Assembly (NCBI GenBank): GCA_023268715.1
Contig: JALRLV010000006.1
Location: 1-48,532, forward strand
Direction: 5' to 3'
DNA from: Candidatus Thalassarchaeaceae archaeon
GTDB lineage: Archaea > Thermoplasmatota > Poseidoniia > Poseidoniales > Thalassarchaeaceae
DNA: 48,532 nucleotides
Shown one piece after another: positions 17,445 through 48,400 of the stretch; within the stretch, counting starts at the first letter, position 1; every line of letters begins with the position of its first letter. The notes beneath the pieces were generated by a model. It saw only the letters and a list, made by a program, of their open reading frames with translations, did not search any database and was not told the origin of the DNA. Both the position numbers and the translations under genes were made by a program.

Positions 17445-17470
17445 GAGTTTGCGAGTGCGACTGCGATTGA

Positions 17471-17478
17471 AATATATG
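17471..17478 (-). promoter_or_regulatory. TATA box of the surface-protein operon
   Basis: The minus-strand sequence CATATATT is centred about 30 bases before the ATG at 17444, predicting a nearly leaderless transcript for the two repeat-protein genes. Confidence 0.55.
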
Positions 17479-17551
17479 ACTACGGAATAATCTTGTTTTT
17501 TAGAGCAATCTTCACCGTTACACTCTTTGACCGAATCTTCAACCATTGCAC

Positions 17552-18861: not shown

Positions 18862-18880
18862 CGACCACCATAGGTGGTCG
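18862..18880. promoter_or_regulatory. Perfect inverted repeat between TATA box and start codon, candidate operator
   Basis: CGACCACC-ATA-GGTGGTCG is an 8-base perfect inverted repeat with a 3-base spacer. It fills the space between the TATA box and the predicted transcription start of the giant lipoprotein gene. A dimeric repressor bound there would block polymerase recruitment. As the region is probably not transcribed, an RNA hairpin is less likely. Confidence 0.55.
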
Positions 18881-18885
18881 AAAAT

Positions 18886-21800
18886 ATGGTAGCAAAGCCC
18901 GAGACGGCTGTCCTCCTCACTCTGCTGATGCTATCTTCTGGATGTTTGGGACTTTTCGAGGATACCTCTGTTGAACCTGAGGTGATTGATTGTGAGATGC
19001 AACCCAACCATCCAGATTGTATTGACGAACAGATAACCGAAGATGATTGTTGGCTGGATCAAGTCTTCACAGGTACCGAATGTCGTCAAATGCAAAAGCC
19101 CGAAGGCCTGTCTTATGGTTTGAGCACGGTGTCCCTGATTATTGGAGAAGAAATGCAATCATTAACTCCCTCATTTACAGGAGATGGCCCTCAATTTTGG
19201 GTAATTAATCCGAGCCTCCCCTCAGGAATCATATTCGACAGAGATAGTGGAGTGATTTCAGGCACTCCTGATGAGGTAAGCCAATCAGTTCGATACACAA
19301 TTATCGGGTCAAATGCTATGGGTTCAACAAATGTCTGGATTGACCTAGAGGTGATTATGATACCACCTTCTTCTATTCTTTATCTTGAAAATACTCTTGT
19401 TTGTGAGTTAAACAATCCTTGCGGTTTTACTGCCCCAACTAATGAAGGAGGAACAATTGAAGAGTGGTCTGTAAGTCCACAACTGCCCATTGGTTTCTCT
19501 ATTTTCGCTGATGGTTCTGTTTCTGGAATTCCTAGTAATTTCGGGGATTCTAACCATACAATAAGTGCCTCAAACAGAGCAGGTTCAGTTGAAACCACAA
19601 TACGAATCATCGTAATACATGAAGCCCCAATGGGGTTGGGATATGGAAGCAACAATTTGCAGTTTAGTATCGGTGATGTGGTTCAGGTAGTCCCTTCTAC
19701 TACCGGTGGAGAAATCACCTCATGGTCTATCGAGCCACCATTGCCTCAAGGTCTCGATTTATTGCAAATTGATGGTTCAATTCGCGGCTCGCCTACAGAG
19801 GTTCAGAGCCTCACAATGCATCGTATAACTGCTGCAAACTCAGGTGGTTCAATTTCAGTCGATGTTCTAATTAGTGTAGCAGACATTCCTGTAACAAACC
19901 TACTTTACAATCCTTGGGAACATGACCTAAGAATCGGAGAACAGATATCGATTACACCCTCATATGTCGGCGGAACACCCGACTCTTGGCAAATTTCTCA
20001 CAGTTTACCTTCAGGCTTCCAATTCAATTCTGCTGATGGTACAATTTACGGTATTGCGACTGATGTACAAAACTCTTGGGAAACTTGGACAATCTGGGCA
20101 AATAACACTGGAGGGTCGACTTCTACAATCTTCAGAATAAAAGTTACAAGCATGGCTCCCGATCTAATTTCATGGGACTTCACTGAATATATTCTCGAAG
20201 CGAATCAGAGTACATTTATTCAGGTGAACAATGATGGTCCAGGAATAGATACTTGGGAAATCGAGCCACAACTTCCAAGCGGCTTATCTATTCTCGACAA
20301 TGGTAGTATTTCCGGTACTCCTACACACAACACAGATTGGGTAGAATATACAATTTGGGCGAATAACTCGGGGGGCTCAGTTGGTCTCCTTCTTTGGATT
20401 GTGGTTCATGATTTACGAGCTGATCAAGAAGAACTCTTACGCGGTATGGGGGAAACCAATTGGGGCGGTTGGCCATCTCCAATTCTACCGATTGGAGAGT
20501 GGTCTTTCCCTGTTGGCTTTGCAGAGGGTGGCTATACAGATAGTATTCCAGTAATCTCTGCCAGCCATGTTGGCAGAGGCAAGATGCTTGGATATGGTCA
20601 CGAAAGTTGGGTCGATGGCGGTGGCACCGAAGAGACAGAATTTTCTCTTCGTGCGGTAGAATGGGTATGTGGTGAAAATGCAAACGTTGGGCTTGCTTAT
20701 GGTGCTGGATTCGACGACTTTGAAGACGAGTTGCAGGCCCAAGGGCACACAGTACATCTCTCTGTAACGCCTGCAGATCTTTCTGGAATTGATTGTCTAT
20801 TGGATGAATTTTGGAATGGGCACGACAATCAAGACAATCTGAATTTAATCAATTTCGTGCTTGCGGGAGGTGGGTTGATTATGGGGGGTCATGCTTGGTA
20901 TTGGTCATACTCAAATTCAGATGTAGCCCACAATTATCCCGGTAACAAGATTGCAAAAACCACCGGGCTTTTCGTATCCCAAGCATGGGGCTACAACACT
21001 GTAAATCTAGCCGAAATCCCTCACTTATTGACAAGACCACAATCCGCAATTCAGGCAATTTTTGATGATCGAATAAATAACCAAAAACTATCCCTCGCGG
21101 ATGCTTCAATCGCAGATTCTACGCTCTCGATTTGCACTGGAGTCGTGAGTTTGGATTTCCATGATTTCTGGTCTCCACTTCGTGACACTGTCAACGCAAC
21201 AGGATGGACAGTAATCGAATATGGAACTCTATGGCAGAATGTAGGGCATGACATGGGAGATGACCCAGTTGCCGACACTTTACTCAGGGTCGAGGCTGCG
21301 CTAACACAAGGCCTTCCAGCAAACGAATTACCAGCTCACCCTAGCCATGTGGAATTTCCTGGCGAGGTGCCTACAAATGCCACTAGAGTGTCAACCACTG
21401 TTTCGGTTGATGGTAACCAAAGTGGCCTTCCGAGTAACTTTGGTTATGCGGGTGCTAGAGCTCATGTTAGGATGAGCACTGGACTATATGCTGCACCAGG
21501 AGAAGTTGTGACAGTAACCCTTCCTTCGGAAATAGTCGACTCAGGAACCTACGTCTTGGTTGGTGCTCATAGTGACAGGTTGTGGTCAAAAACCCAGTTA
21601 CATCGACATCCAGAAATTGTTAGATGGTGGTATGTTGATAATGTTAGCATGGAGGTTGGGAATGCCTTCGGGGGACCAATTTACATTGCAATAGAACCGG
21701 GTTCAACGTTGGGCGTTTTCCAAGTTAATTTCTCAAATGCGGTAGAGGCTCCGATGTTTGTTCTTGGAGAGACTTCCGACTTTGAATGGATATATTCGCA

Positions 21801-22887
21801 AAGCGATAATCCCGCTCCTTGGGCCGAATTGGTTTCGGATAATTTCATTATGACAGTACCAAGCCATGAAATTCGGGATTTATCCAATCCAACAGATCTT
21901 ATGGACTGGTGGGATATTGCTCTAGAAATGGAGCATGAATTGTATGGTTACTTACCTTGGCCAAGAGTAGAGCGTGCGGTCTTTGATGCTCAGATATCAG
22001 CAGGTTGGATGCATTCTGGATATCCATTCATGGCTCATGATTTGAGCGTGGCAGGAGTAGTCAATCTGTCCTATATGTCAGAGAATGGAGATTGGGGGAT
22101 GTTCCACGAATTAGGACACAACCATCAATGGATGCCTTCAACCCTTCCGGGGACAACAGAAACTGGGTGCAACTTTGCTAGTGTCTATCTGATGGAAGAT
22201 TTGGTTGGAATAGAGGGCCACAACGCAGTTGACCCTGCTCAAAGAGCGAATCGTATGAGGGGCTATTTTGATGATGGCTCTAATATAGCCAATTGGTCCG
22301 TTTGGACTGCCTTGGATACCTATTTGATAATCAAAGAAGAGTGGGGTTGGGATCCGATAACTCAAGCCTTAACGGTATATTACACATTACCTGCGGCAGA
22401 GGTTCCAACAACTGGTGATGAAGAATTCAATGCCTGGGTTTTACATCTTTCAAATGCGACAGGGTTCAATTTAGCACCTTATCATGACGCGTGGGGATTC
22501 CCACTAACACAGAATACACACGATTCTCTTTCTCATTTGCCAATCTGGGTTGAAGATCCGTTACGAGGAGAATATTTCACCTATCAAGCGATACTTAGAA
22601 ATCTAGGGGTGAATAATACGACATCCAGCAGTTCAACATTTAGTTGGGAAACTTACGATAATGGAACGAATACCTCACTAACAATTTACTACGGGCCAAT
22701 GGATATGGGCAACCAATCTTGGGTTTGGGCCAATAGTGCACCCTTAGGTGACTCAGCAGTTGGTTGGTCAGATTACGAAATTACAGGTCTATCTAGTAAT
22801 TCGACGTACTACGCCAGAGTCAAGGCTTCGAATGAAAATGGGAACACATGGTTCGGGCCAGTAAATTGGACTACATCCGCTAATTGA
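18886..22887 (+). CDS. Giant surface lipoprotein with five Ig-like repeats and M60-family metallopeptidase domain (1333 aa)
   Basis: The N terminus carries a lipoprotein signal (LLTLLMLSSGCLG, lipobox LSSGC). Five putative-Ig (He_PIG-like) repeats follow, each with W-x-I/V-x-P-x-LP-x-G-x-x-x-x-x-x-G-x-I-x-G-x-P, over about residues 70-500. Next is an alpha/beta region (about 510-720) with GGGLIMGGHAWYWSY and YPGNKIAKTTG, as in the domain that precedes M60 in animal TCAF/FAM115 proteins. Then comes a peptidase M60 domain: HELGHNHQW with zinc histidines H1074 and H1078, and a following glutamate in GTTETGCNFASVYLME. A fibronectin-III-like domain ends the protein (about 1245-1333). M60 enzymes cut glycosylated or mucin-like proteins, so a role in degrading glycoprotein is likely. 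The ATG at 18886 is chosen over GTG 18874 from TATA spacing. Confidence 0.88.
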   Translation: MVAKPETAVLLTLLMLSSGCLGLFEDTSVEPEVIDCEMQPNHPDCIDEQITEDDCWLDQVFTGTECRQMQKPEGLSYGLSTVSLIIGEEMQSLTPSFTGDGPQFWVINPSLPSGIIFDRDSGVISGTPDEVSQSVRYTIIGSNAMGSTNVWIDLEVIMIPPSSILYLENTLVCELNNPCGFTAPTNEGGTIEEWSVSPQLPIGFSIFADGSVSGIPSNFGDSNHTISASNRAGSVETTIRIIVIHEAPMGLGYGSNNLQFSIGDVVQVVPSTTGGEITSWSIEPPLPQGLDLLQIDGSIRGSPTEVQSLTMHRITAANSGGSISVDVLISVADIPVTNLLYNPWEHDLRIGEQISITPSYVGGTPDSWQISHSLPSGFQFNSADGTIYGIATDVQNSWETWTIWANNTGGSTSTIFRIKVTSMAPDLISWDFTEYILEANQSTFIQVNNDGPGIDTWEIEPQLPSGLSILDNGSISGTPTHNTDWVEYTIWANNSGGSVGLLLWIVVHDLRADQEELLRGMGETNWGGWPSPILPIGEWSFPVGFAEGGYTDSIPVISASHVGRGKMLGYGHESWVDGGGTEETEFSLRAVEWVCGENANVGLAYGAGFDDFEDELQAQGHTVHLSVTPADLSGIDCLLDEFWNGHDNQDNLNLINFVLAGGGLIMGGHAWYWSYSNSDVAHNYPGNKIAKTTGLFVSQAWGYNTVNLAEIPHLLTRPQSAIQAIFDDRINNQKLSLADASIADSTLSICTGVVSLDFHDFWSPLRDTVNATGWTVIEYGTLWQNVGHDMGDDPVADTLLRVEAALTQGLPANELPAHPSHVEFPGEVPTNATRVSTTVSVDGNQSGLPSNFGYAGARAHVRMSTGLYAAPGEVVTVTLPSEIVDSGTYVLVGAHSDRLWSKTQLHRHPEIVRWWYVDNVSMEVGNAFGGPIYIAIEPGSTLGVFQVNFSNAVEAPMFVLGETSDFEWIYSQSDNPAPWAELVSDNFIMTVPSHEIRDLSNPTDLMDWWDIALEMEHELYGYLPWPRVERAVFDAQISAGWMHSGYPFMAHDLSVAGVVNLSYMSENGDWGMFHELGHNHQWMPSTLPGTTETGCNFASVYLMEDLVGIEGHNAVDPAQRANRMRGYFDDGSNIANWSVWTALDTYLIIKEEWGWDPITQALTVYYTLPAAEVPTTGDEEFNAWVLHLSNATGFNLAPYHDAWGFPLTQNTHDSLSHLPIWVEDPLRGEYFTYQAILRNLGVNNTTSSSSTFSWETYDNGTNTSLTIYYGPMDMGNQSWVWANSAPLGDSAVGWSDYEITGLSSNSTYYARVKASNENGNTWFGPVNWTTSAN

Positions 22888-23950: not shown

Positions 23951-25228
23951 TCACCCGATAATCTGAGTAATTCTAGTTTCGACTTCTACTATTTCGGATA
24001 CAACCGAAAAGGCAGAAGAAATTGATTCGGAAAAGCCATCGGGTAATTCATTTCTATGATAGATTACAATCAATGGCTCACCAATCTCGATTTCATCACC
24101 AACTTGCGCTTCAATAATTGCGCCAACTGCGTGGTCTACACTATCGGTGAGAGTTTGTCTACCCGATCCTAGTTCTAGACACGCGAGTGCAATCGACATT
24201 GCATCGATATCCTGAATCCATCCGTTTTTCTCGACATAAATCTCAGTCGAAAGTAAATTATCGTCGAGTAAGCCAAGCGAACTTAGCATCGAATGGTCGC
24301 TTGAAAAGTCATTTCGATTTCCACCTTGGGATTCTATCATCTCTAGGAATTTTTCGAAGGCGCTTCCGTCGTTCAGAGAATTATGAATCATCAAAGCCCC
24401 CTCTTCCATATCTTCAACAATTCCGGATGCTGCCAAAAGAATTCCTGCCTGTACACATACTAGTTCTTCTAGATCATGCGGACCACGTCCACATAGTGTT
24501 TCGACGGATTCAACAATTTCTAGTGCATTTCCTACCGCGCAACCTATTGGTTGATCCATTGTTGAAAGGACGACAGAAGTGGTAATTCCCATGCCATTGG
24601 CGGCGTCTGCCATCGATTGGGATAATGCCTCGGCTTGTTCTCTTTCTTCCATGAATGCGGCTCTGCCATATTTGACATCTAGAACCAATGCAGAAAGCCC
24701 CTCTGCAGCTTTTTTCGAAACAATTGATGAAGTGATTAATGGAATAGATGCAACTGTTCCGGTTACGTCGCGTAGGGCGTACAACCTTCTATCTGCAGGG
24801 ACAAGTGAATCTGTCTGACCAACCATTGCTAATCCGATTCTTTCAACCTGTTTTTGCATTTCATCTATAGATAGGTCTACTCGAAAGCCAGGAATGCTTT
24901 CCAGTTTATCCAAAGTGCCTCCTGTGTGCCCCAAACCTCGTCCAGATATCATCGGCACTTTGAGCCCACAAGCGGCAAGGGCAGGGGCTAAAACGATTGA
25001 GACCTTATCACCTACTCCACCTGTTGAATGCTTGTCAACGACTAGATGACTCCACTCTTTTGGCCAAGTCAGAACTTTCCCGGAATCTCTCATTAATTCT
25101 GTTAGAGCGGTAGTAGATTTCTCATCCAGTCCGTTTTCGAATACACTTCGCAACCAATCGATGACTTGATCATCACCAAGTGAACCATCGACGACTCCAT
25201 TTACAATATCAGCGATTGAATCGCTCAT
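23951..25228 (-). CDS. deoA: Thymidine (pyrimidine-nucleoside) phosphorylase, bacterial type
   Basis: The enzyme cleaves thymidine with phosphate to thymine and deoxyribose-1-phosphate. Signature segments are DKHSTGGVGDKVS, MISGRGLGHTGGTLDKLESI, and LVLDVKYGRAAFM with the phosphate/pyrimidine-binding lysine. At 425 residues it lacks the N-terminal extension of archaeal AMP phosphorylases (about 500 aa) and matches bacterial DeoA/Pdp, suggesting acquisition from bacteria. The start overlaps the stop of the upstream PhoX/PLD fusion gene by four bases (ATGA), with GAGGAT as ribosome site, so the two are translationally coupled. This coupling to a secreted phosphodiesterase hints at use of nucleosides derived from external DNA. 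Confidence 0.93.
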   Translation of the reverse strand: MSDSIADIVNGVVDGSLGDDQVIDWLRSVFENGLDEKSTTALTELMRDSGKVLTWPKEWSHLVVDKHSTGGVGDKVSIVLAPALAACGLKVPMISGRGLGHTGGTLDKLESIPGFRVDLSIDEMQKQVERIGLAMVGQTDSLVPADRRLYALRDVTGTVASIPLITSSIVSKKAAEGLSALVLDVKYGRAAFMEEREQAEALSQSMADAANGMGITTSVVLSTMDQPIGCAVGNALEIVESVETLCGRGPHDLEELVCVQAGILLAASGIVEDMEEGALMIHNSLNDGSAFEKFLEMIESQGGNRNDFSSDHSMLSSLGLLDDNLLSTEIYVEKNGWIQDIDAMSIALACLELGSGRQTLTDSVDHAVGAIIEAQVGDEIEIGEPLIVIYHRNELPDGFSESISSAFSVVSEIVEVETRITQIIG

Positions 25229-28200
25229 GTCTCATCCTCGCCGTATTCATCGCGCAATTCTTCGATACTCATCCCCTTGTCCAAGAGGAACTGGACTTGA
25301 TTTCGGTCAAGTTTATCGAAGCCAAATCCATCTAAAACAATCTGACCGTGTACTCCATCATCTCTACCTTCTGTCCACTCCCGAGTATCCTCAGATTCTT
25401 CATCGAATCGTGTCCCCTTTAGAATAGCCTGTTCAGCATCAGCATCATCGAATCTATATCCTGAATCGTCGATTAGTCGAGAATCGGTTTTTATTCTTGG
25501 TCTTCTTACCATTGTTAGGCCTGCACCAATCAAAGAAGTCGCTGCAATTATCGTCAGTGCCAACAAGAATTTAGCACCCGGAGCCGAGAGCGGATCGTCT
25601 CGAACATTATTCTCTAGCCAACCCCTATTTCCTTCGTCATTATTATCTCCATCAATGCCATTGGTATTGTTTGTTTGACCGTTGTTGTTATCGATGATTT
25701 CTTCTTCATCACAGCCAAATTGTATTCCATCCGGGATCCCGTTATTATCTACGTCGCTAGAACTCATGGCCACTATTGGCGACCTTCCTAATGATTGAGC
25801 AAATTCAGCCTCTTGCCCATCCAGAATACAGTCATCATCAGTGTCGTTATCATTTGGATTTCCTCCCCAAAGGTATTCGTTTAAATTGTTTAATCCATCT
25901 TCATCTAAATCCAGTGATTGTTCACTTAGAGCAGTTCCAAGCACGGCTGCGGAATGTCGATTCAAACCGTATTGAATCTCCCACATATCCGGAAGTAGGT
26001 CACCATCTGAGTCTGTAGTTGCGTCAAGTCGATGCCAATCTTCGTTGAATGATTGTAGATAATCAGAAGTTATTGATTGATCATGAATTAATACACTCAT
26101 TTCTCTATTTCTCAATGCCGCATTTGAACCCCAATTCATGCTTCCAACAAGAACGCTCTCCCCATCGATTATTGCACCCTTATTGTGTAATTTTGTAATC
26201 GAGTCAGAATATGCCATTAGTCGTGCTGTGGTATCCAAGCCCTCTGTTGCATTCCAATTTGTATTGAACAGGTTAACTGCATCTCTAATTTCATCATCGC
26301 TGTTTGCATAAAACCCGTTCAATAGTAAGCGGACTTGTACTCCTCTTTGGGCCGCTTGGTAAATTGCTTCAATGATTGGATTATCACCGAATCCCCAATA
26401 CCAATCTAAGTCTAAGTATTGCAATGAAAGTTCAATTGTTGAATCCGCGGCGTCAATCATTTCGATAATTCCATCAACACAATCGTCTGGACATGTCATC
26501 AGTTGCATTTCCATAGGACCTGAATATGCTTGGGTAGTAGGTGCTTGTAACGAGGTCCCGCTGGTTTCGTCCATTATCCAATCGGAGGTTGGTGCATGAT
26601 TCGATGAGTGTGGTGAGATGTGTAGGTGATTCTGATTTTCGTCCCAAGAAAGACGAGACATAACTAGCTCAGCAAAGGAAACTGAGTTGACAATAACCGA
26701 CCACTCTCGATTACCTATTCCATCTGGTGGTAGGCTTGTATCCTTCCAGTTTCCTGATGAAATCCATACACTTTCAGTATCTCTAACAGCAACCTTGCTG
26801 TGAATGTAAGTATACGGAGAACTGATCAAACTTGGGTCCTCCATCCAAAGAACGGTTGCTCCAGCATCATGGAGTGTTTGGGCATGACCTCTTTGGTTAT
26901 TTTTTGTACTACTTCCATCGAGTATACCTTCTTCAAGTAGAATTGTGACTGAAACGCCTCGATTTATTGCTTCCAGTAATGCAGTAGTTAGGTCCGGGCT
27001 CATAAATTGGTAGACATGTAGATGAATCGATGTTTCTGCATCCTCAATCCAGTGCATTAAGTCATTAAATGATGTATCAGGACCAATAGAAGATGAGACT
27101 GTAGAGGATTCTTCTAGTGTAATTTTTCCTCCATCACAGAAGGTTGAGGCTCCAATTCTAATCCACCTGTATTCCCAATCTTCGCCCATATCTGTGTCAG
27201 GATTATCTCCACAGCCAGTGCCTCGCATCAAAATCAGTCCAGGCGTACCATCTCCGGGTACTGAAATCGCTGCACCATTCCATCCTTCGATTTCAGCATC
27301 ACCTCCTCCGTATACAACTGCGTCAACAACAGTTCCATCAGGAGACTTTAGTTGAAGGGCACTTCCAGAATCGACAAGCCAGGGCATATTGTTCATGACA
27401 ACATTTCCATCCATCGCAACAATTCCACCATCCGAGAATAGATTGTTCGGATTTTCAGTCAATACAACCGAAGCTCCTGCTGGTATAACCAGTTCGTTGA
27501 AGGTTGAAATCCATGGGGTTGTTGACCTTATTCTTTCAATTGTCCAACCAGTGAGGCTAATTTCTTCATCTCCGGTATTCGTCAATTCAAACCAATCATT
27601 ATCTCTGTTCGGGACCTCACCAGGCATAATTCTGGAAAACTTCACATCAAATTCGTTGTCCCAGTCAGATGGCTCAGCGGGAGGCTGCCAATGCCAAACC
27701 ATGTTATTTTCGTGTTTTCCAGTATCCTCTGCAATCAACAGACTGCCATCGTTGAGTACAGCCAGATTATCCGGTCCAGCAATTCTGTTTACATCACAAC
27801 GACCTGAAGAATAACTTCCACCCGCTTCTACAGGCTCCATTCTAGTAACATCCCACTGTTCGTTCACTGGTAAACTGTAAATTATTCCACATCGATTTTC
27901 AGAGAGTTGAATATCTCCTGAAGAATCTGTCATATCGTATCTGATGTCCGACATAGCAAGATAGAGGTATTCAGGTGAGTTCTCATTGAATACTACGCCT
28001 TCCATCTTATTCCATTCATCGGTTGCTCCCAATGCAGCCGCTGCCTTTCTCGATTCTAGGAACGCTACTCGATTATCAGCAGCAAAGCCAACATTTCCAT
28101 CGCCATCAAGGTCATCGTCAAGCCTATGCTCTGCCCAATCATTGATTTCTTGATCAGAAATGTACGAATTCTGACCGTTGATAAAGTCGGAAGTATCTAT

Positions 28201-29793
28201 TCCATCATATTGGTCAATCCAACTTGTTATTTGAGCAGAATTTGAGTTCCCTAATTCGACCCATGTGACATCAAATCCAGTGGTAGCTGGATTGCTCCCT
28301 GAGTCTTGGTTTACCTTCGCAGCGTAAAGAGTCCCTGAATGCAAATCTCCTGCGGAATCTGCAATAAATTTGAACAATACAGTACCATATTCATCATCTG
28401 ACAAATAAACCGTTTTCCTATCCGGCATTACCTGCGCATTTTCGTGAGAAAATCTTCCAAGAGGGTACAATCTTTCAAACTGAGGGTTTTCAGTTTCTGC
28501 ATCTTCAACTTCAATTATCCAACCGTAATCATACGGATTTGGATAGAATCCTAGATAGTCTGCCAACTCTAATTGGTCTTGGTGATAATTGTAATTGGGA
28601 TTATTCCAATCAATCGTATCATCAAAATATAATTCCTCAGAGAGTAGTGGGGTGCCCCATGGGCTCAACGAACCAAAGCAAAGGACCCAGCCTCCATTAA
28701 TTCCACTTAGGTCTAGCATTTTTCCACCGATAGTATCCCATTCACCGGACATATCGTTCCATTCGATATGGAGTTGGCTAACTCCACCGGGGCGGCTCTC
28801 CCAAGTGGAGTATAGGTAACCCTCAGTTCCTTGGGGATTCGTAGGTACAAAGACATTGAAATCAGGTTTTTCACTAGTGAACAATAATGCTCCATCATCT
28901 GCAGCATAAATTCCACCAGCAATATCGCCATTGCTGAGTGAGTCGCCTGATTGTGCCAATACCTGGTATGTACCTACTGATGTTCTAACTCCATGCCAAA
29001 TATCTGATTGACTAATTGTCGACGGAAGTTCAGGAATAGTCTCCGGTAAATCATTCCAATCAAACCCATTTACTACACCAATTGTCGCTTTGTATGGGTC
29101 ATCAGGGTGCATTGCGCTGACGAACAAATTGCCCATTGAATTGACGTGTAATCCAGTAGCTTCAGCACCGTCAGGAACCATCATTATTCTAGTTAGGTCG
29201 CTGGGAGTTGGTGGGTCAGGGTCGCTAACAGGATCCCCGCCAGAGTTCTCATTTCCTGGTGTCGGCTGATCAGAATCAACCCAATCTCCACCGGTTCCCG
29301 AAGGTATCTTTGAGACTCCATTGGCTGCTTGTCCTGTTGTGATTTCATGGATTATGATATCCTGAGAGTCTTTGAGAAATACTGTTTCTCCAGCATTATT
29401 CAAACGTAAAGTGCCGATTTCATTTTCTGCGATAACAGCGTATGCTCCTGGTTCTATGGTGTAAGGCGTGGCTAAATCTGCAAAGCCGACCCAACTGCTT
29501 TGGTTTATTGGATGGGTCCAACCACCGATATCGACAATTGTCCATCCCTCTAGGTTCACAGAATTAGAACCGGTATTGAGAAGTTCAACCCATTCACCTT
29601 GAGGAAAGATTCCCTGGTCGGATCCATCTGCATTGGGCATTAGTTCGTTTATACAAACTGTACATGAGGAATTCTTTATTGTCTCCCGAAATTCATTAGA
29701 GGAATCTACTTGTAAATTTGGAGAGGGACCAAGCAGACTTATCATCAATATAGCAATGATTGCCAGTGCAGGCCTTGCTGTCCGCCATTCCAT
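25225..29793 (-). CDS. Secreted fusion: lamin-tail / PhoX-like phosphatase / lamin-tail / phospholipase D, membrane anchored (1522 aa)
   Basis: A signal sequence (ARPALAIIAILMISLLG) leads to a lamin-tail domain (INELMPNADG...GEWVELLNTGS, about 45-150). A region resembling PhoX/DUF839 alkaline phosphatase spans about 200-740: SPWGTPLLSEE (W379), LGRFSHENAQVMPDRKTVYL, KMEGVVFNEN and PDNLAVLNDGSLLIAED. A second lamin-tail follows (about 750-860). A phospholipase D unit has two complete HxKxxxxD motifs, HSKVAVRD (H998) and HNKGAIID (H1203). Calcium-loop repeats, one membrane helix (FLLALTIIAATSLIGAGL) and an acidic cytosolic tail end the protein. Expected action is extracellular hydrolysis of phosphoesters in lipids or nucleic acids. 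The frame extends to a GTG at 29883; the ATG at 29793 suits the signal peptide. Confidence 0.85.
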   Translation of the reverse strand: MEWRTARPALAIIAILMISLLGPSPNLQVDSSNEFRETIKNSSCTVCINELMPNADGSDQGIFPQGEWVELLNTGSNSVNLEGWTIVDIGGWTHPINQSSWVGFADLATPYTIEPGAYAVIAENEIGTLRLNNAGETVFLKDSQDIIIHEITTGQAANGVSKIPSGTGGDWVDSDQPTPGNENSGGDPVSDPDPPTPSDLTRIMMVPDGAEATGLHVNSMGNLFVSAMHPDDPYKATIGVVNGFDWNDLPETIPELPSTISQSDIWHGVRTSVGTYQVLAQSGDSLSNGDIAGGIYAADDGALLFTSEKPDFNVFVPTNPQGTEGYLYSTWESRPGGVSQLHIEWNDMSGEWDTIGGKMLDLSGINGGWVLCFGSLSPWGTPLLSEELYFDDTIDWNNPNYNYHQDQLELADYLGFYPNPYDYGWIIEVEDAETENPQFERLYPLGRFSHENAQVMPDRKTVYLSDDEYGTVLFKFIADSAGDLHSGTLYAAKVNQDSGSNPATTGFDVTWVELGNSNSAQITSWIDQYDGIDTSDFINGQNSYISDQEINDWAEHRLDDDLDGDGNVGFAADNRVAFLESRKAAAALGATDEWNKMEGVVFNENSPEYLYLAMSDIRYDMTDSSGDIQLSENRCGIIYSLPVNEQWDVTRMEPVEAGGSYSSGRCDVNRIAGPDNLAVLNDGSLLIAEDTGKHENNMVWHWQPPAEPSDWDNEFDVKFSRIMPGEVPNRDNDWFELTNTGDEEISLTGWTIERIRSTTPWISTFNELVIPAGASVVLTENPNNLFSDGGIVAMDGNVVMNNMPWLVDSGSALQLKSPDGTVVDAVVYGGGDAEIEGWNGAAISVPGDGTPGLILMRGTGCGDNPDTDMGEDWEYRWIRIGASTFCDGGKITLEESSTVSSSIGPDTSFNDLMHWIEDAETSIHLHVYQFMSPDLTTALLEAINRGVSVTILLEEGILDGSSTKNNQRGHAQTLHDAGATVLWMEDPSLISSPYTYIHSKVAVRDTESVWISSGNWKDTSLPPDGIGNREWSVIVNSVSFAELVMSRLSWDENQNHLHISPHSSNHAPTSDWIMDETSGTSLQAPTTQAYSGPMEMQLMTCPDDCVDGIIEMIDAADSTIELSLQYLDLDWYWGFGDNPIIEAIYQAAQRGVQVRLLLNGFYANSDDEIRDAVNLFNTNWNATEGLDTTARLMAYSDSITKLHNKGAIIDGESVLVGSMNWGSNAALRNREMSVLIHDQSITSDYLQSFNEDWHRLDATTDSDGDLLPDMWEIQYGLNRHSAAVLGTALSEQSLDLDEDGLNNLNEYLWGGNPNDNDTDDDCILDGQEAEFAQSLGRSPIVAMSSSDVDNNGIPDGIQFGCDEEEIIDNNNGQTNNTNGIDGDNNDEGNRGWLENNVRDDPLSAPGAKFLLALTIIAATSLIGAGLTMVRRPRIKTDSRLIDDSGYRFDDADAEQAILKGTRFDEESEDTREWTEGRDDGVHGQIVLDGFGFDKLDRNQVQFLLDKGMSIEELRDEYGEDET

Positions 29794-29843
29794 TGCCCTT
29801 ACGTCTAGAGTACAACGATTGAACCCTTCGCGCAAGCGCGCAC

Positions 29844-29864
29844 GCGGCTGGCTGCGCCAGCCGC
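29844..29864. repeat. GC-rich perfect inverted repeat between two surface-protein genes
   Basis: Arms GCGGCTGGC and GCCAGCCGC (9 bases each) are separated by TGC, inside a stretch at 29821-29880 that is about 70% GC by my count, far above the surroundings. It follows the CD36-like gene stop in the direction of transcription. There is no T-run, so it may act as an mRNA-processing or stabilising hairpin or as an operator for the next gene. Confidence 0.55.
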
Positions 29865-29879
29865 TGTATCGCAACGGCC

Positions 29880-32567
29880 TCACTCTTCTTCTTTCGATTC
29901 TGCTAGAGGCCCTGTGCCAGAGAACCCTAGTGCTCCAACAGCAATCATCGCGATACTCGCAATATACAATGCTGCAGTTATGATATCGATTGTTGCAGTA
30001 CCCTCCAATTCACAATCTCCACTTCCGCCGAAATCAGTCCAGTACATAGGCTCCATATTGTCCAGCACCCGACACTTGAAAGTTTCAGCATCTTCATCCC
30101 CAATTTCTGAGAAGGTATGAATTTCGAAAACCGGATGTGTGTCTACATCCATCTCAGGATTAAGCATTCCAGGACCTCTTAGGTCTAGGTGGAACATAGA
30201 GATGGATTTACCGTACATCGCAACTTGGGTAACAGGCTCTACCTTGATGTCTACGGTTGAACCAAAGTATACGGGTAATGCACCCGGAAGTACATCCACA
30301 AAGGATGCAGAGCCAATTAATTTCGCTTGTATTTGGTTTTGTGATGGGTCTAGGTTTACTGTGTGCGCTCTCATTTCAATTCCCTTGTATGTTTCCATAT
30401 TCCCTGGTACTGATTCAGCCATAGCATATCCTACAAGGTTGACCTTGAATGAATTTTCACTGTCTGCGACCCCACCAACAGCACCAGCAACTACGGTGTT
30501 GTCGTTACCGACATGGGCTGATAGTAGTCCCAGAGTTGAGGTTTCTCTGTGTGGTGCCCTCCATGGGAGGTGCTCGGTGAATCCGTACAATTCGCCATCT
30601 TCACAGGGGTACATCCCACTTGAGTCTGCATTTGCCATTGTTCCATCCGAATTCAACTTGAAATCACAGTGTCCATCTCCGTCAGAATTGATGTATCCCT
30701 GGCGCAATCTTTGTCCCATATCTTCCCCATCTGTACTTGCGACATATACATCATAATCTCCAGTAGTAACGCTATCCGAGCCGAAGTATGTTTCATTTGT
30801 TTCGAGACTTACCCAACCCAATGCCATATTGTCAGGTTCTCCGTAAACAACATCGGCCACGATGATGTCTCTCCAGCCGAACAACCAGTTATCGACTGGC
30901 TGGGTGATGAAAGCGGATCCGCCGTATTGGAAGCCCAATAATGCCCCAATTACTTGGTCGAACATGAAATCCGCAACCCAACTTCGAACTGCCGAGGCAT
31001 CAGATTCCGAAATATCGTAAAGTCCTGCGACATACGCATCATTCCAATCAGTTGTTTCGCCTCCTTCTTCTGTTGGAAGAGTGCTTCCTGAAAGCTCTCC
31101 GTACATGAATACACGTGCGAAATCGGAAGTCAAAGCATAAGGAGATGTGTAAAGGATCTCCTGTACCTTAGCGACATCCATGTCGACTGCACCTTCGAAA
31201 TCTCCTCGATTAAGGCCAATAGGTATGTATCCTCCAGCAATTGGCTCCTCGCCCCCAAAGGAAAGTTGCCACCAATCATCAGCATTGATCGTACCTTGGC
31301 CACCTGCGAGAATCATTTCAAATTCAGTTGGGGTGCCAACTAGGCCAATCCATTGTCCAGCGTAATCCGACAATCCTAGTAGTTGAGTCAGTCCAATTCC
31401 ATATGTTGTCATAGTTCCGAATAAGTCTCCATCGGCACCGAGCAAGAATAATGCAACGCCGTTTAATGGGATTCCACTGTAGTCGGATACAGATAGAAGT
31501 CCGTTAGCAATGTCTGCATCAGGAGTTCCGAATAGAACCCCATTCAATACATCTGGATCTGCAATGTCGACTCCGCTGACTTCATCCAATCTCTCCCTCA
31601 AGTCTGTGGCTTCAGAGAGCTCGGCACCGCCTCCACGAGCAAGGAAAGTACCTCCTGCCAGAGAGTATACTGCCAGATCGATTGCATTCATTTGTTCGCC
31701 AGAATCTGCATAACCATACAAAGCGGCTCTAGTTTGGGTAGTCGCTCCACCATCCGGGGCACCCATGCCTGCGACAAGCATAGGGCCGATGTCACAGGTA
31801 AGAGCAATACAAGTTCCAGTAGAAGGGTCGACTGCATCAGTCATTATTCCATCAGTGTATGTTGAGAAATCAGGCATCCCGTCGCTGCTTCCACCATTTG
31901 CTTGCATGTAAGCGCCCGCCAGGGTCCCCACTGCTCCGTTAGCTGCAACCAATCCAGAAATGTCTTCTGAGGCCCAAATTGAAGGTGCTCGGTTTTGCAG
32001 ATCGTTGGCTATCATGCTGTTAGCGAATCCAGCCTTAGCAAATACTTCACCATAGATTATTCCGGTTGATATTCCGGCGATTCTTTGAGTATTCCATAAG
32101 ATGTTAACTTGAGTGATTTCAGTTGAACCAGAAACAGAATTGTGTGAATCTCCATTGTCATCTATCCAGGTACAGTTCTCGCACCATTCAAAACTATCAA
32201 ATTCAGAATAAGTTATTTCCCCAGCATCATAATCAAAATCTAGAATTTCTCTAGTTGTTGTGACTTCGTAGATGAAAGGCCCCATTTTCGTAAATTCATG
32301 TGCTTCTCCCGCATCTACACCTTCTGGGTTATCTAGAGAATATGCGAAATATACTCTCTCCGAGGTCGATACTAACCATTCATCATCATAATCATTGGTG
32401 TAGTTTTTGTTTCCGTCGTCATCATAGCCATCATAGCCATCGGCGACTGCATCAGCCACACCTGCTTCTACTTGCCCTGCTACAAACGGCGCTAATGCTA
32501 GGAAATTAATCCCAATTAACACAAGTCCAGTCACTAACAGTACGCTTGCCTTTTGTTGGTTGTCCAT
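29880..32567 (-). CDS. CD36/LIMP-2/SR-B family membrane protein (895 aa)
   Basis: Topology matches CD36: a short cytosolic N terminus, one helix (about 7-30), a large external domain, a second helix (about 860-882) and a short charged tail. Family motifs occur in the right order: VYFAYSLDNPEG...KMGPFIYEV (GPF at 96-98; CD36 has N-P-E...GPY-x-Y-R-E), EITYSEFDSFEW, then FITQPVDNWLFGWRD (W561-D567; CD36 has ELLWGYKD), VDIKVEPVTQVAMYG (CD36 has VDINPxTG) and MEPMYW near the second helix. It is about 400 residues longer than human CD36, mostly from an insert at about 190-540. Eukaryotic members bind or move fatty acids, lipoproteins and sterols. A function in lipid capture is inferred. The ATG at 32567 has GAGTGAT upstream. 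Confidence 0.8.
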   Translation of the reverse strand: MDNQQKASVLLVTGLVLIGINFLALAPFVAGQVEAGVADAVADGYDGYDDDGNKNYTNDYDDEWLVSTSERVYFAYSLDNPEGVDAGEAHEFTKMGPFIYEVTTTREILDFDYDAGEITYSEFDSFEWCENCTWIDDNGDSHNSVSGSTEITQVNILWNTQRIAGISTGIIYGEVFAKAGFANSMIANDLQNRAPSIWASEDISGLVAANGAVGTLAGAYMQANGGSSDGMPDFSTYTDGIMTDAVDPSTGTCIALTCDIGPMLVAGMGAPDGGATTQTRAALYGYADSGEQMNAIDLAVYSLAGGTFLARGGGAELSEATDLRERLDEVSGVDIADPDVLNGVLFGTPDADIANGLLSVSDYSGIPLNGVALFLLGADGDLFGTMTTYGIGLTQLLGLSDYAGQWIGLVGTPTEFEMILAGGQGTINADDWWQLSFGGEEPIAGGYIPIGLNRGDFEGAVDMDVAKVQEILYTSPYALTSDFARVFMYGELSGSTLPTEEGGETTDWNDAYVAGLYDISESDASAVRSWVADFMFDQVIGALLGFQYGGSAFITQPVDNWLFGWRDIIVADVVYGEPDNMALGWVSLETNETYFGSDSVTTGDYDVYVASTDGEDMGQRLRQGYINSDGDGHCDFKLNSDGTMANADSSGMYPCEDGELYGFTEHLPWRAPHRETSTLGLLSAHVGNDNTVVAGAVGGVADSENSFKVNLVGYAMAESVPGNMETYKGIEMRAHTVNLDPSQNQIQAKLIGSASFVDVLPGALPVYFGSTVDIKVEPVTQVAMYGKSISMFHLDLRGPGMLNPEMDVDTHPVFEIHTFSEIGDEDAETFKCRVLDNMEPMYWTDFGGSGDCELEGTATIDIITAALYIASIAMIAVGALGFSGTGPLAESKEEE

Positions 32568-32601
32568 GGTATCACTCAAGCCCCCCTCGTGTGCCCGAAG
32601 G

Positions 32602-32674: not shown

Positions 32675-34330
32675 TTAAGCAAAGCCGAATGCATCTAATT
32701 CCCTTGCGAAGGTATACACCATGATTGGAACTAGAATCACACCCATTCCGTGCGACCTTCGGATACCAATTCTAGGTGCCATAAGACCGATCATTGTTCC
32801 AATAACTAAAGTTCCAACTCCAATCCAATCTGTAGATATCCAAACTAGAATGGTAATGAAAGCACTAACCGAAATCACTAGGTTTCTGAGAGGTACTAAT
32901 TCGTGCATTTTCAACATACCTTTTCCGACCTCAATCATTACTGGAACAGCAAATAATCCTGATGCGACTGTAATAGCAAGCAGTCTAACGAAATCGGCAG
33001 GCGGCTCAACAGCATTCCAAATGTCGATCGGATACATCATATTCAATGCTAGAGCGGCTCCAGAACGTGGCCTTCCTACCATGTACAGGAAACCCAGAAC
33101 CATAACAGTGACTGCGGTGTTGACAGACGATAGAATTGCAATAATCTCTAGGTCTCTTTGTTGATTATTGTTGACCAAATCCAAGTCTGGTGTAGCACCT
33201 GCTTCGGAGAGCGCCTCTTGGAATAACAAGCGATCATCATCCGATAGGTCATCCATCCCCTCAAACACCATCATCTGTGGCATCTGTTCAAATCCAGGTT
33301 GAGTTCCATGCTCGAAATCTGCTGGAATGTAGTTGGGGTCGGTAAGTTTACCCCAAAAGTTTCGAGCACTCATAACTACGACAGTTGCCTGTGCCGCAGT
33401 CATTCCTGGAAGGATTGCCATAACAGAAGAAACTACTGCTGAAAGGAATGTTGGAACTGCCAAGGGTTTAGGGTCTGGCATTTCCCAATTTTGTTCTTGG
33501 GGTGGAATTTCGCTTGTTGTTACGTAGATATCAATTAGGTTTGCAATCCCAAATAATCCAGCTAAGCTAGGGAATAACAACGAAGCAGATGGGATTCCAA
33601 CCGGTGATCTAGCGGGTAATTCGAATACCGCCCACCCATAGAATCCGGTAAGTAAGAAATAGGCCGTTGCAACTAGTATTCCAGCAACTCTAGAACTTTC
33701 CCCGAGTCGAAAATCAATCACATCATATCGTCTTCGAATACTGAGTCTCCCCATCGGTATAGTAAACTCCACTGGTTTTTTCAATGGCCATTTTAACTTC
33801 TGAGTTATTTTTTGTGACCAAACTGGCCATGGTAATCGCGTTGTTTCAGTCAAAATTAGGAATATGGAGATGAATAATAGAATCCATGGTAATTGTTCAC
33901 GGCTTGCTTCATACAAACCCAACCCCGGATTTTCTCCGAAAAGTAGGCGCGCAACAATTAGCAGAGGAATTGACATCAGCATACCCATTTGGGAGCCGCG
34001 AGCAGAATATGCAACACCTTGAGCGGCTTGACCAGAAATCAACATCCTATGTCCCGGAAGTAAAGCGAGTGCCATGTTGTCATCGGGTGCTCCTACCAAT
34101 GCACTTGGAATGTAATTAAGGAATGTGTGAACAGTTCCACATGCAACAATAATCCCTGCTACTGCATCTAAGGGGATACCAATGCCGACAGCAACAGGTG
34201 ATAGTGACAAAGCGATCAAAGCGACGTTATTTACGTGGAAACCAGGAATTAATCCAGTCAAACAACCAAGGAATATCCCAAAAATAAATGACCCAATTAA
34301 CCAACCAAAATCGATTAACCAAGGGTCCAT
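32675..34330 (-). CDS. TctA-family (COG1784-like) polytopic membrane protein
   Basis: About twelve hydrophobic segments fill the 551 residues. The N-terminal helix pair with FGIFLGCLTGLIPGFHVNNV is the glycine-rich TctA signature in the form seen in archaeal COG1784 proteins. TctA proteins are the large membrane subunit of tripartite tricarboxylate transporters, but archaeal versions usually stand alone, and no TctB or TctC partner is here. The substrate is unknown; an organic acid is a reasonable guess. GAGGTG six bases before the ATG overlaps the end of the upstream OB-fold gene, so both are cotranscribed. Confidence 0.85.
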   Translation of the reverse strand: MDPWLIDFGWLIGSFIFGIFLGCLTGLIPGFHVNNVALIALSLSPVAVGIGIPLDAVAGIIVACGTVHTFLNYIPSALVGAPDDNMALALLPGHRMLISGQAAQGVAYSARGSQMGMLMSIPLLIVARLLFGENPGLGLYEASREQLPWILLFISIFLILTETTRLPWPVWSQKITQKLKWPLKKPVEFTIPMGRLSIRRRYDVIDFRLGESSRVAGILVATAYFLLTGFYGWAVFELPARSPVGIPSASLLFPSLAGLFGIANLIDIYVTTSEIPPQEQNWEMPDPKPLAVPTFLSAVVSSVMAILPGMTAAQATVVVMSARNFWGKLTDPNYIPADFEHGTQPGFEQMPQMMVFEGMDDLSDDDRLLFQEALSEAGATPDLDLVNNNQQRDLEIIAILSSVNTAVTVMVLGFLYMVGRPRSGAALALNMMYPIDIWNAVEPPADFVRLLAITVASGLFAVPVMIEVGKGMLKMHELVPLRNLVISVSAFITILVWISTDWIGVGTLVIGTMIGLMAPRIGIRRSHGMGVILVPIMVYTFARELDAFGFA

Positions 34331-42463: not shown

Positions 42464-45400
42464 ATGCCATATGAAAACGGGAAAACGGGGGACGTCGGCC
42501 AGTACAATGGACTGGTTTCGACACCAGCGGTGTTAGCAGGATTGCTTCTGTTACTCTTCGCTGCAACATCCCTCTCTGATGATGCGATGATTGACACAGG
42601 AAAGTTGGTTATCCTTCCCGTCGCAGCTGCGTTAGCGGCTGTAATGGGAAGGTTTTGGGTATCTGCCCTTCCAGAAGATTCACCTCTAAATCGAAACTCG
42701 ATATTCGTACTAATCTTTGCTGTAGGACCGGTAGCCCTAGAAATACTCGGATTTATTGACGCCATACTAGCAACTACTGTTGCATTTGTGGCTGTATCAA
42801 CACTCATTCTTGTAAAATCCAATAGAAATGAGGAAGCAACAATCGTATTCTCTATGGTCGCTGGGTTCCATGTTTCTGTGGCCTATGCCGCATCTATGCC
42901 TGAATTGGCACTATCCGAAGGAGATAGCTTACAGAATCTATTAATCGATGTCCAAAGGGCTGGTATAGCTGCTAATTTCTTCTCATTCTATGCTGCATCA
43001 TTGATGCTTGGGACAATTTTTGCTGTATTATTCAGAGGAGTATTGTATGAGGGTGGAAATGGGTCTTTATTCGAAAGGCTTCCAAAGAAAATAGATTTCT
43101 CAGAGCATCGTGATATACTAATCACTTCATTCATTCTCTTGATTGTTAACTTAATTCCGCTCTTCTCAATAGCAACCATTTCAGATGCTGCTACCTTTGA
43201 GGGGCACCATTACCTTGGAGGGGTATGGGCTTTAGTAACCTCAGCAGTAGTGATGTTTGTAGCCTTCTGTCGTGCTGAGAGATGGCACGTTCTGGGGGCA
43301 GTAGTAGCCGTAAATTGGCTGATCTACACTATCTCTCACTTGGTCGAGATCGGAGTTAGCCTCCCCGAACAATTAGAATTCCTAGCCGGCAATGACTTCG
43401 GTGGTGCGTTCTCTTGGTTCTTCATCACATTCTGGCTGAATGTACTTGCAATCATGCTTGCATCTAGTGGAAGGTTCGGAGATATTGCTCCTCGCCGTGA
43501 GCCCAGTCAGTTCCGCTTATGGTGGAGAGATAATTCCTATTCTATCCTAGTCGGCTCCGCAGTAATTACTGGTCTCCTGATTAGAACCGGTTGGAACGTC
43601 CTTCCTGCGATGAATGCAAACATAACAGGGCTATGGGATATGACTGGAGGCTCAGATCCATGGTACATGAAGAGGGTTGTAGATTACATTGTAGCAGAGC
43701 ATGCACACTTCATTTTCGATGCTGACCGGTCTTACCCTAGTGGAGGAATCAATCCTCGACCTCCACTGTTTTCTTGGTGTCTAGCACTAGGTGGCCTCGC
43801 TCTTGAATGGCTAACTGGCATAGCAGCCGAAGAAGTCGTTTGGTGGTCCGTTGCAGGTTTGCCAGCAATTTTCGGAGCATTAATTGTCCTACCAGTTGCA
43901 GGAATTGCAAATCGCCTTCACAGCGCACAGGCAGGAATATTCGCTGCTTGGCTCATGGCATTGATGCCCGGACACATTAGCCACTCAACGTTTGGTCTAG
44001 CAGACCACGACTCTTTCGCACTTCTTTTCCTAACCCTAGCCATCTACTTCTGGGTTAGAGCGTTAGGAGAAATTGGCAGTGAGAGGGTATTCCGCGACCC
44101 AAGTGCCAATCCACTCTACTTGGTAGCCGGAATTCGAGAGATGTGGAATAGAAATCCTGTTATGATGTCCTATGCAACATTAGCAGGTATTAGCTTCTCA
44201 ACAGTAGCACTTGGTTGGAAAGGATTCGTTTACGGTCCCGGTATTCTTTTCCTAGCATTTGCTTTTCAGATAGTTCTCAATATGTTCCGCCGCCGTGACA
44301 GCCTGCCCCTTACCTCGGCAGCTTTGCAGATGATGTTTACAACATTCCTAATCCCATTACCTTTCTACATATGGCCCGGACTTAACCTACTTTGGGCCCC
44401 AAGCGGATTCCAACCTATGTTCTATATTGTAGGGTTCACGATTGCATTAGGTTGGGTCGCATCTAGCTTCCGCGACAAACCTTGGCTATTGGTTTTAGGC
44501 AGCGGTGGCTTACTATTTGGCGGAATTCTATCGGCATTGTGGATTCTACAAACCGCTGAATATTACGACGGCTGGGATATCTTATTCACTGGCGGATTCT
44601 ATTTCTCAAAGAACAAGATTTTCGGAACAATCGGTGAGGCTCAGGCCCCGAGTAGAGGTGTACTATTCGCTTCCTTCGGCCCGATTGTTACACTGATTGC
44701 GTTAAGTTATGCATTCATCTTACTCTGGCGAGGTGCCCGAGAAGAAAAGCAGGGCCTTTCGCTCGTTGGTTTGTGGGTTCTTATTGCCTCATACATGGCT
44801 TGGACTGCTGGTAGATTCATTCTCAACGCAACTCCTGCTATGGCCGTTGTTGGGGCTATCGGAATAGCCGCTCTTTGGAATATGGCTGATTTCTCCGGCT
44901 TCATCAAAGAATGGCGTCGCGCGGGAATTGGAACTCCAAGAGCCCGTTTCCGCTCTGCTAGAACTGCTAGTGTGAAGAAGCCGATGATTCCAGCCTTGGT
45001 GCTAGTGTTCATGCTGGTGGCAACTCAACATGCAACCTACGGTATCGATTCAGGTATTCCAAGAGGTGAGACAGCCTCGGGAGATGTTGATCAGGTAATT
45101 TACGATATTACCCCTGACGTAATGAGATTTGATATCGGTGGGCTATCACTTCTAGATAGTAGTACATACAATCCAACAGCGAACTGTGGAAATGGTTGTT
45201 GGTACATGGGAACATTCGGCCCTGGATTCAACGGCGGGGGTTGGAATATGGCCTATGAATGGCTTTCAGAACAAGATTCTGATACTGATTTTACCCAAAG
45301 ACCTGCTTTCGTCTCTTGGTGGGATTATGGATTCCAAGCATTGGATTCTGGAGAGCACCCTACCGTTGCTGATAACTTCCAGTCCGGTATTCCTCATAGT

Positions 45401-48400
45401 GGTGGAATGCTACTATCCTCTAGTCAAGAAGATACACTTGCTATGTTTATCGCCACATTGGCTCAAGGAGACAGACAATATTCCGGAAACGGAGAATTTG
45501 GCGAGGAATTTACCCAAGCCATTCAGAACCACCTAACTGCAGAACAAATTGAAGAGTTCCATGATATTCTATCACTTGGACCCGGTCAGAAGCAATTCGT
45601 AATCGATCGTTCTTTGGTTCTTATCTACCAAAATGTACAGGAGGTACAAGATTCATCCTTCACAGCAGGAAACCTAAAGATTACCACAGATCTGATGCAC
45701 GGTACAATACTTGATGAAAATGGGCTTCCAACCGAACCTATGTGGTTTGTCTTTAAGGATGGAAAGCAAGTTGGAAATGCGACTCTAAATGAGACAGAGG
45801 CTAAATCGATTTTCAACCAGGCACGTGGATCTAGCCAACCCTATGAGGAGCAAACAACGCATTACGAAATTGGTGGTTACAGATATACTGCCGACTTAAT
45901 CGAAAGTTATGATGACGTTTCAACAAATCTACATCGTGCTAATGCCAAGTTAGGTCTGTCACGTGCTTTCCTAACCACGGCACTTACCCTAGATGAATTA
46001 GTGGAAATGTACCACGATATTTCTTCTCAGGTTGTCTACGAAGTTCAGGATTATGAAGGTAGTTTGGGAGAAACTATCGAACGAAATAATGAGATTCGCT
46101 ATTTCGCAATAGACGATAGATTGTATCCGCTTGGTGGAGCGTATTACGCGGACCAAAGTTACCATAGAGGTCAAACAACTGGAATCTTCTACGCGCCAAC
46201 CACCCTTTCTGGTCTAGATCCCAATCATTACATTGAATCGGTCTATGAGACTCAGCGAGGAAATAGACCCACAGTCTTCATGAGTTCTGAGCGCTATGAA
46301 CAGGAGTATATGTCGGATGTTGTCAAACAGCAATCTGGAGCAATGGAAGATTCCACAGATATGATTCAGCTTGTCGATATACAGTATCAGCAAACCGAAT
46401 CTTTCTTCGAGACCATGGTTGCAAGAATCTATGTCGGATATGGGACTTCAAGTTTGGGACTAACAGTTGACCCGTCACAACCAGGGCCAACATGGGCTAT
46501 CAGCGGAACCCCAGGTTCCCCGCTCGAGAACGCTTTCCCGCTTCCAGGTGCAATGATGAATCACTTCGTCATTGCCAATTGGTATGATGACGGCTCAGAC
46601 TCCCCTGATGAGGACAACAACAGCGTCCCAGATATTTTCGACGGTGGTTATGCGGCAATAGGCAGAGCTAATTCCAATGTTAAGGTTGTAAAATATTACA
46701 GTGGTGCAACTATAGAAGGTACAGTTGAATTAGACGGAATAGGTCCTGTCCCAAATGCCAGAATATTAATCGAGAGGGATGCCTTTAGTGGCGAAGAGGT
46801 TGCCGATGAAAATGGCAATGTAATAGACCAAGACCCTCGAACTTACTGGATTCCTATTGGAACAGTAGATGCAGATGAAAACGGACATTATTCCTTCACT
46901 GTCCCAGCGGGTAAGATTAGAGTTTCAGCCTTCTTTGGTGAGTCTGATCTTAGGGCGGCTCGGGATGAACTAACAAGTGGTGGTGGAGGTATGCTACAGG
47001 ATGTAGCAACCGAATCAACAACTGGCGAAAGAAATGTCAATCTTGTCACTGGAATATTGGGTAATGTTTCCGGCTCTCAGTGGTTATCTGAGACTATCAT
47101 TAACGTTTCAGGAGAAGATGGCCATTCCAATGGTCAAGCACTCATTAACGGGGATATCATCGTAGAACCCTCATTCTCCACAGGCCGATTAATTTGGAAT
47201 GGCGCCGGCTCGTTTGGTGGTGAAGCAATCACCGATGCTGTTGTTGAATTGTCTCCTACTTGGGACCAAATCGAGATGCAACCAATTATGTTGGAAACTT
47301 CCACAGGTAGCGTAAACGGCCCTGACCTTGCTTTCCAAGGAATCGGCCAAGTGACATTTACTGGTGAAGGAGAGGTCATCAGCAATGGTCTGATGACAGT
47401 CAGCGATTTCGTAGGAACTCATACACAAACAATTCTTTCCGGGCACAGCCTTGCTGGGTCAGGTGAATTTACCGGTCGAGGGACTCTCTCCGGAGTAATT
47501 GATGGGGAGGACATTGTCGATGGTGAATGTAACGAAAATGGAACAATGCCCGAGAATTACTCTGTTTGTTCCCTATCAGATGGAGACTTCTTGATTGACG
47601 GTGCTGTTAATGCAACTGGAAGATTTACCTCAAACGGTACATCCTCATTCTCACAAGAACACAATGGTTCGTCACTAATTGGAGCAGGTGTATTCACCGT
47701 AGATGCCAGTAATGAGGAATTAGACTCCTATGGAACCCTAAACGGCACAGGTACTTTCAGTGGAGAGGGAGAGTTCAGCGGACCTATGGTTCAAGCTGGA
47801 ACATTCCATCTAATCGACGCCATACCAGGAAATTACAACGTAGCAGTTATCTTCAACGATGGAACTAGAATCGAAATCATTGATGGATTTAACGTTCCTT
47901 TTAGAGGGGTGCCTTCACTTCATGAAATCGATGTTGCAGGTGGATCCATTTCCGGAATATTAACGGATGAAAATGGAAACATTCTGGCTGGTTCCGTAAC
48001 TATGGTTCACTCCGAATCTGATAATGATACTATTCTCGGAGAATGTAGTGACGTGATGTACGCTCCTTGTCGGTTAACTGCAGATGAGAACGGTTCTTTC
48101 GAGTTTGGCCCCATCATTCCAGGAGAATACACATTTGCTTTGGATATGGATGAAGACGGCTTCAATGAAGTAGAGTTGATGCATGAATTCGATGCAGAAA
48201 TGGATTCGCAAGTTGAATTCCCAACTCCAATACCTACCGTGTTCGATTTGAGATTCTCACTAAGCCAAATCGTTGATGGTATACAAACCCCAGTTGATGG
48301 TCTAGAAAATTTGACACTGGTGAAGAGTGATAATTCAGCACCACCAGTAGTTGCAGTATTCGATAACATCAGTGGAGAATACATGGCAGAATTATCCCAA

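Follow-up and report, generated by a model that had tools for sequence, protein, structure and literature searches.

The stretch of DNA analysed (the window) comprises 48,532 nucleotides of contig JALRLV010000006.1 (assembly GCA_023268715.1) of a Candidatus Thalassarchaeaceae archaeon, the genome of which amounts to 1.55 Mb in 92 contigs and the closest relatives of which are Marine Group II (MGII) and Candidatus Thalassarchaeum assemblies. The gene of interest is an ORF of 895 aa on the complementary strand (29880–32567), which begins with an ATG at 32567 and ends with the stop codon at 29880–29882; an alternative TTG start at 32579 would add four more codons. Hydropathy analysis revealed only two transmembrane segments in the product, one at each terminus (residues 7–25, 32493–32549, and residues 862–880, 29928–29984, both on the complementary strand), and both terminal helices were detected in the same way in 64 of 73 relatives. 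The ORF and the two-helix topology described by the first-pass annotation were thus borne out, and the motifs that it had listed, NPEG...GPFIYEV, NWLFGWRD, VDIKVEPVTQVAMYG, and MEPMYW, were each found in the translation. Three blocks, all on the complementary strand, relate the protein to the CD36 superfamily: block 1 with GPFIYEV (residues 73–159, equivalent to positions 54–133 of PF01130; 32091–32351), block 2 with NWLFGWRD (residues 533–607, positions 142–222; 30747–30971), and a C-terminal block, PVFEIHTFSEIGDEDAETF... (residues 812–840; 30048–30134), which is collinear with PVMYLNESVHIDKETASRL of LIMP-2 in the profile alignment and the match of which is not significant taken alone. Blocks 1 and 2 are separated by a predicted helical insert at about residues 164–530 (30978–32078, complementary strand), the boundaries of which, drawn from models and alignments, are approximate.

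Directly downstream lies a gene (25225–29883, complementary strand) for a secreted-looking product that, according to domain matches, unites a lamin-tail domain (LTD), PhoX, and two PLD-like (NucT/DrmC-like) domains in one chain. Because its mechanically assigned GTG start overlaps the stop codon of the CD36-superfamily gene by 4 bases, the two genes are probably co-transcribed in the clade of the host. The next gene encodes a thymidine phosphorylase (23951–25228), and the PLD/PhoX protein and this enzyme possibly act in extracellular DNA breakdown and nucleoside salvage. On the upstream side, a TctA-family membrane protein (32675–34330, complementary strand) and an OB-fold-like protein are encoded. 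Compared with the host locus, locus L010 showed 63% identity for the CD36-superfamily protein, 94% for TctA, 84% for the OB-fold protein, 77% for the PLD protein, and 72% for the phosphorylase; over loci L002–L007 and L010, TctA was 94–99% conserved and the CD36-superfamily protein 63–91% identical. The latter is the fastest-changing of its block, as expected for an exposed protein. In five other loci (L013, L014, L015, L017, and L018) the gene has a choice-of-anchor gene as its immediate neighbour on one side and an acyltransferase on the other, with no PLD/PhoX or TctA neighbours around it, and the flanks in one Poseidoniaceae-type genome revealed no lipid gene in common and merely an esterase close by. 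Since the neighbours are not conserved across the family, they do not define the function of the protein, and an operon-based assignment was rejected on the basis of the five loci that lack PLD/PhoX and TctA and of the Poseidoniaceae-type flanks. An M60/enhancin-like peptidase with Ig-like repeats (18874–22887, forward strand) also occurs in the window, and its homologue was found near the CD36-superfamily gene in L013–L015 and L017–L019. Elsewhere in the window, a 601-aa archaeal protein carries an EF-hand pair at its N-terminus (2841–4646, forward strand), and two adjacent large proteins (11971–14610 and 14646–17546, complementary strand) both contain TSP3 repeats, the former together with a borderline Reeler domain (21.2 bits, cut-off 21), a domain known mainly from eukaryotes. 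An ORF of over 2,023 aa (42464–48532, forward strand), which runs past the end of the window, includes an STT3 oligosaccharyltransferase domain and further on a sub-threshold carboxypeptidase-regulatory-like match.

The claim of the first-pass annotation that the protein is a CD36/LIMP-2 homologue was examined by profile searches. PF01130 (CD36) was the sole Pfam family matched by the 895-aa protein, and the score exceeded the curated cut-off (31.2 vs. 26.5 bits, E 1.1e-7). The same family was matched in 16 of 17 close relatives, the 17th being a fragment that begins past the N-terminal block, and the scores reached 73 bits (E 1.7e-20) in more distant genera and the sister family. When a profile of 20 relatives was searched against all PDB sequences, LIMP-2 (4.6e-5) and CD36 (9.5e-5) ranked first, and the first unrelated protein appeared at E 0.058; with the 895-aa protein as a lone query, the PDB matches were at E of about 1.4. 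The region past residue 400 alone gave an E value of 0.083 against CD36 for the protein itself, and independent CD36 matches for the relatives L073, L074, and L077 (1.5e-8, 1.1e-7, and 3e-5), so that the CD36 signal flanks the insert on both sides and in the right order. The profile alignment also gave the conserved blocks in the order found in LIMP-2, that is, block 1, block 2, and the C-terminal block, and the distance between WLxGW and PVFEI, counted from the alignments, was 251 aa in the archaeal protein and about 229 in LIMP-2. Chance similarity was ruled out by the phylum-wide pattern of PF01130 matches, by the E values of the relatives, and by the matches on both sides of the insert.

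Structure predictions were made for the 895-aa protein (model 1) and for L016 (model 2) with AlphaFold, each from an alignment including 16 relatives. Both models were poor (pLDDT 50 and 52, pTM 0.35 and 0.40), with fair confidence mainly in the helical insert. In Foldseek searches of 350,542 PDB chains, the top 16 matches of model 1 were all CD36, LIMP-2, or LmcA, as were the top six of model 2. The match of model 1 to CD36 reached E 0.018 with probability 0.99, the other E values were worse, and the TM-scores were low. LIMP-2 and CD36, with which the first-pass annotation had proposed a comparison, were thus among the best PDB matches, but the central tunnel could not be judged on models of such confidence. 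The fold matches nevertheless favour a CD36-type fold. Considering the Pfam score, the 73 bits of the relatives, and the profile ranking, which uphold the homologue claim, we concluded that the 895-aa protein is almost certainly homologous to the CD36 superfamily, as an archaeal branch of it.

The insert that had been described as lineage-specific and 350–400 residues long proved to be real, although it is common to all relatives aligned. The distance from the GP of block 1 to WLxGW is 465 aa in the 895-aa protein, 465–545 aa in 20 relatives, and about 90 residues in LIMP-2 (counted from alignments), which corresponds to approximately 375–455 extra residues in 20 of the 20 relatives. The archaeal proteins are about twice as long as LIMP-2 or CD36, and the addition, the most confidently modelled part of which spans residues 181–360, maps between about residues 125 and 155 of LIMP-2 in the profile alignments, if E93 of LIMP-2 is placed as described below for the tunnel. 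Judged from these alignments, the site would be the region of the apical helical bundle, where LIMP-2 H150 and CD36 F153 are located, so that the small alpha4/alpha5/alpha7 bundle has a much longer predicted-helical counterpart in the archaeal protein. The apical bundle, to which GCase docks in LIMP-2 and PfEMP1 in CD36, is near the main opening of the CD36 cavity (PMC5052687, PMC5712522).

The archaeal proteins share with LIMP-2/SCARB2 and CD36 the PF01130 match, the order and spacing of blocks, the two terminal helices, and the best PDB sequence and fold matches; in contrast to the metazoan proteins, they lack the disulfide cysteines and most of the alignable tunnel charges. In metazoan class B scavenger receptors (SR-B), six cysteines of the ectodomain are conserved and form disulfides (PMC4912623). 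The 895-aa protein contains eight cysteines (129, 132, 253, 258, 634, 655, 832, and 852), and the relatives carry 0 to 14, with no fixed set among them. For comparison of the tunnel, E93 of LIMP-2 was taken by us to be the first E of YRELRNK, as suggested by the E-x-R-x-K pattern. The charged network of the LIMP-2 tunnel consists of E93, R95, K97, D252, K381, and E413 (numbering of PMC4912623), and of these the three alignable residues E93, R95, and K97 align with V102, T104, and R106, the last alone being basic. Since these hallmarks of SR-B proteins are missing, the label "scavenger receptor" in the first-pass annotation goes too far, and the protein is best filed in an archaeal branch of the CD36 superfamily, not as an SR-B receptor. 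The insect CD36 protein SNMP1 is similar in its two-anchor ectodomain and in the proposed funnelling of hydrophobic ligands to the membrane (PMC4912623), but it is a partner of olfactory receptors and has the six conserved cysteines. The view of CD36 proteins as eukaryotic also calls for correction, since prokaryotic CD36-like folds were known before from the actinobacterial DUF3068 proteins LmcA/PgfA (PMC8972800, PMC9678360), which are described as exclusive to actinobacteria (PMC9678360). The crystal structure of LmcA shows a CD36-like asymmetric beta-barrel with cavities, resembles LIMP-2 and CD36 (DALI Z 11–12), and lacks the apical helix bundle (PMC8972800), the region that is enlarged in the archaeal proteins. 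In the region past residue 400, four relatives gave weak matches to DUF3068/PorA (PF11271; best E 3.7e-4), yet the cut-off was never reached in the relatives (best 20.4 vs. 29.5 bits) and the host genome itself had no match. Assignment to DUF3068 was rejected, given 73 bits for PF01130 vs. 20 bits for PorA.

The family profile detected members in 204 of 244 Poseidoniales genomes. In a phylum-wide sample, 80 of 345 genomes were positive, all of them Poseidoniales, and the non-Poseidoniales Thermoplasmatota sampled contained no family member. A search with PF01130 gave the same picture (65 of 293 Thermoplasmatota genomes, all Poseidoniales, and 0 of 14 control genomes), and no relatives were found on the viral contigs searched. 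Among the genomes listed, the gene is absent in genera g8 (0 of 9) and g16 (0 of 4). In the genome search, the host family Thalassarchaeaceae was labelled f1 and the second family of Poseidoniales f2, which, the order comprising these two families, we take to be Poseidoniaceae. A quick tree of 73 sequences with some long branches contained, besides a main clade of Thalassarchaeaceae, a second one, in which all f2 sequences grouped together with copies from three Thalassarchaeaceae genera. This mixed clade fits an old Poseidoniales gene that, as far as the tree suggests, may have undergone duplication or exchange inside the order. Two loci (L069 and L083, in genomes G185 and G070) carry two adjoining, divergently oriented CD36-superfamily genes, one copy being of the Thalassarchaeaceae type and the other grouping with the f2 clade.

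As for function, lipid uptake from outside the cell to the membrane appears to us the best inference and a moderately probable one. It rests on lipid-binding homologues, on the acyl-CoA and 3-hydroxyacyl-CoA dehydrogenases encoded in the host genome, and on fatty-acid degradation by MGII archaea. The solved relatives carry lipid in an internal cavity, palmitate in the case of CD36 (PMC5052687) and cholesterol as well as phosphatidylcholine in that of LIMP-2 (PMC5712522), and for PgfA there is a link with the transport of trehalose monomycolate (PMC9678360). MGII archaea are reported as fatty-acid degraders in passages of two papers, and these passages on fatty acids name no lipid importer (PMC6336850, PMC9723583). 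The two terminal helices would anchor the protein and hold a single large ectodomain outside the cell, which by homology may form an asymmetric beta-barrel enclosing a hydrophobic passage down to the membrane. The helical domain of about 400 residues, in place of the small apical bundle, could serve at the outer mouth as an enlarged cap or docking site. Lipids, such as fatty acids, would be picked up from particles, detritus, or vesicles, led through the barrel into the membrane of the cell, and would then enter beta-oxidation. Against uptake speak the neighbouring genes (PLD/NucT-like, PhoX, and thymidine phosphorylase), which point to salvage of DNA or nucleosides rather than to lipids, the replacement of the LIMP-2 tunnel charges E93/R95 by V102/T104, and the genera g8 and g16 without the gene.

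A protein of the same superfamily and fold might instead serve the envelope, carrying lipids or lipid-linked sugars made by the cell itself outward or from one envelope layer to another, a role that has been proposed for PgfA and LmcA. Both models have LmcA among their best fold matches, a weak PorA/DUF3068 similarity lies in the C-terminal half, and PgfA is required for lipid trafficking in mycobacteria (PMC9678360), but the CD36 scores are far above those of PorA, no envelope-lipid synthesis genes were seen adjoining the gene, and its absence from whole genera suggests that it is not essential; we consider this alternative unlikely. Still less probable, in our estimation, is a protein that acts at the cell surface as an adhesin or as a receptor of particles, proteins, or other cells, in which the CD36 core would be a scaffold and the variable insert the working part, and which, as an extension, could serve as a virus target. 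The rapid change of the gene within its block (63% vs. 72–94% in L010), the position of residues 201–250 among the least conserved of the family, and the docking of protein partners at the apical bundle in both CD36 and LIMP-2 (PMC5052687, PMC5712522) agree with such a role, but no part of the insert exceeds the CD36-core blocks 66–130, 551–600, and 761–800 in conservation, which argues against a mere scaffold. A non-homologous surface protein with local look-alike motifs, to which the lone-query PDB matches and the protein's own C-terminal half would lend themselves, is very improbable in view of relatives at E 2e-20, the separate matches on each side of the insert, and the convergence of the sequence profile and both fold searches on one superfamily.

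Among the planktonic archaea of ocean surface waters, Poseidoniales are reported to be the most abundant, and they have no cultured representatives (PMC6461757). No description of an archaeal CD36 was found in the literature searched, which did not extend to many subscription papers or to automatic database annotations, and the term CD36 did not occur in the MGII literature searched. A CD36 relative in most of Poseidoniales, with lipid uptake as its favoured role, is a concrete candidate lipid importer for fatty-acid-oxidising archaea, and it adds an archaeal branch to a receptor superfamily that has been investigated almost exclusively in animals. With this branch and the DUF3068 cousins, the origin of the CD36 fold becomes a question for trees and structures. 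A bolder reading, which we regard as rather unlikely, takes the family for an ancient archaeal CD36 branch and the main surface lipid importer of Poseidoniales. If so, the CD36 fold, considered together with actinobacterial DUF3068, would be of prokaryotic origin and no eukaryotic invention, or else the ancestor of Poseidoniales and eukaryotes would have exchanged it by transfer in one direction or the other.
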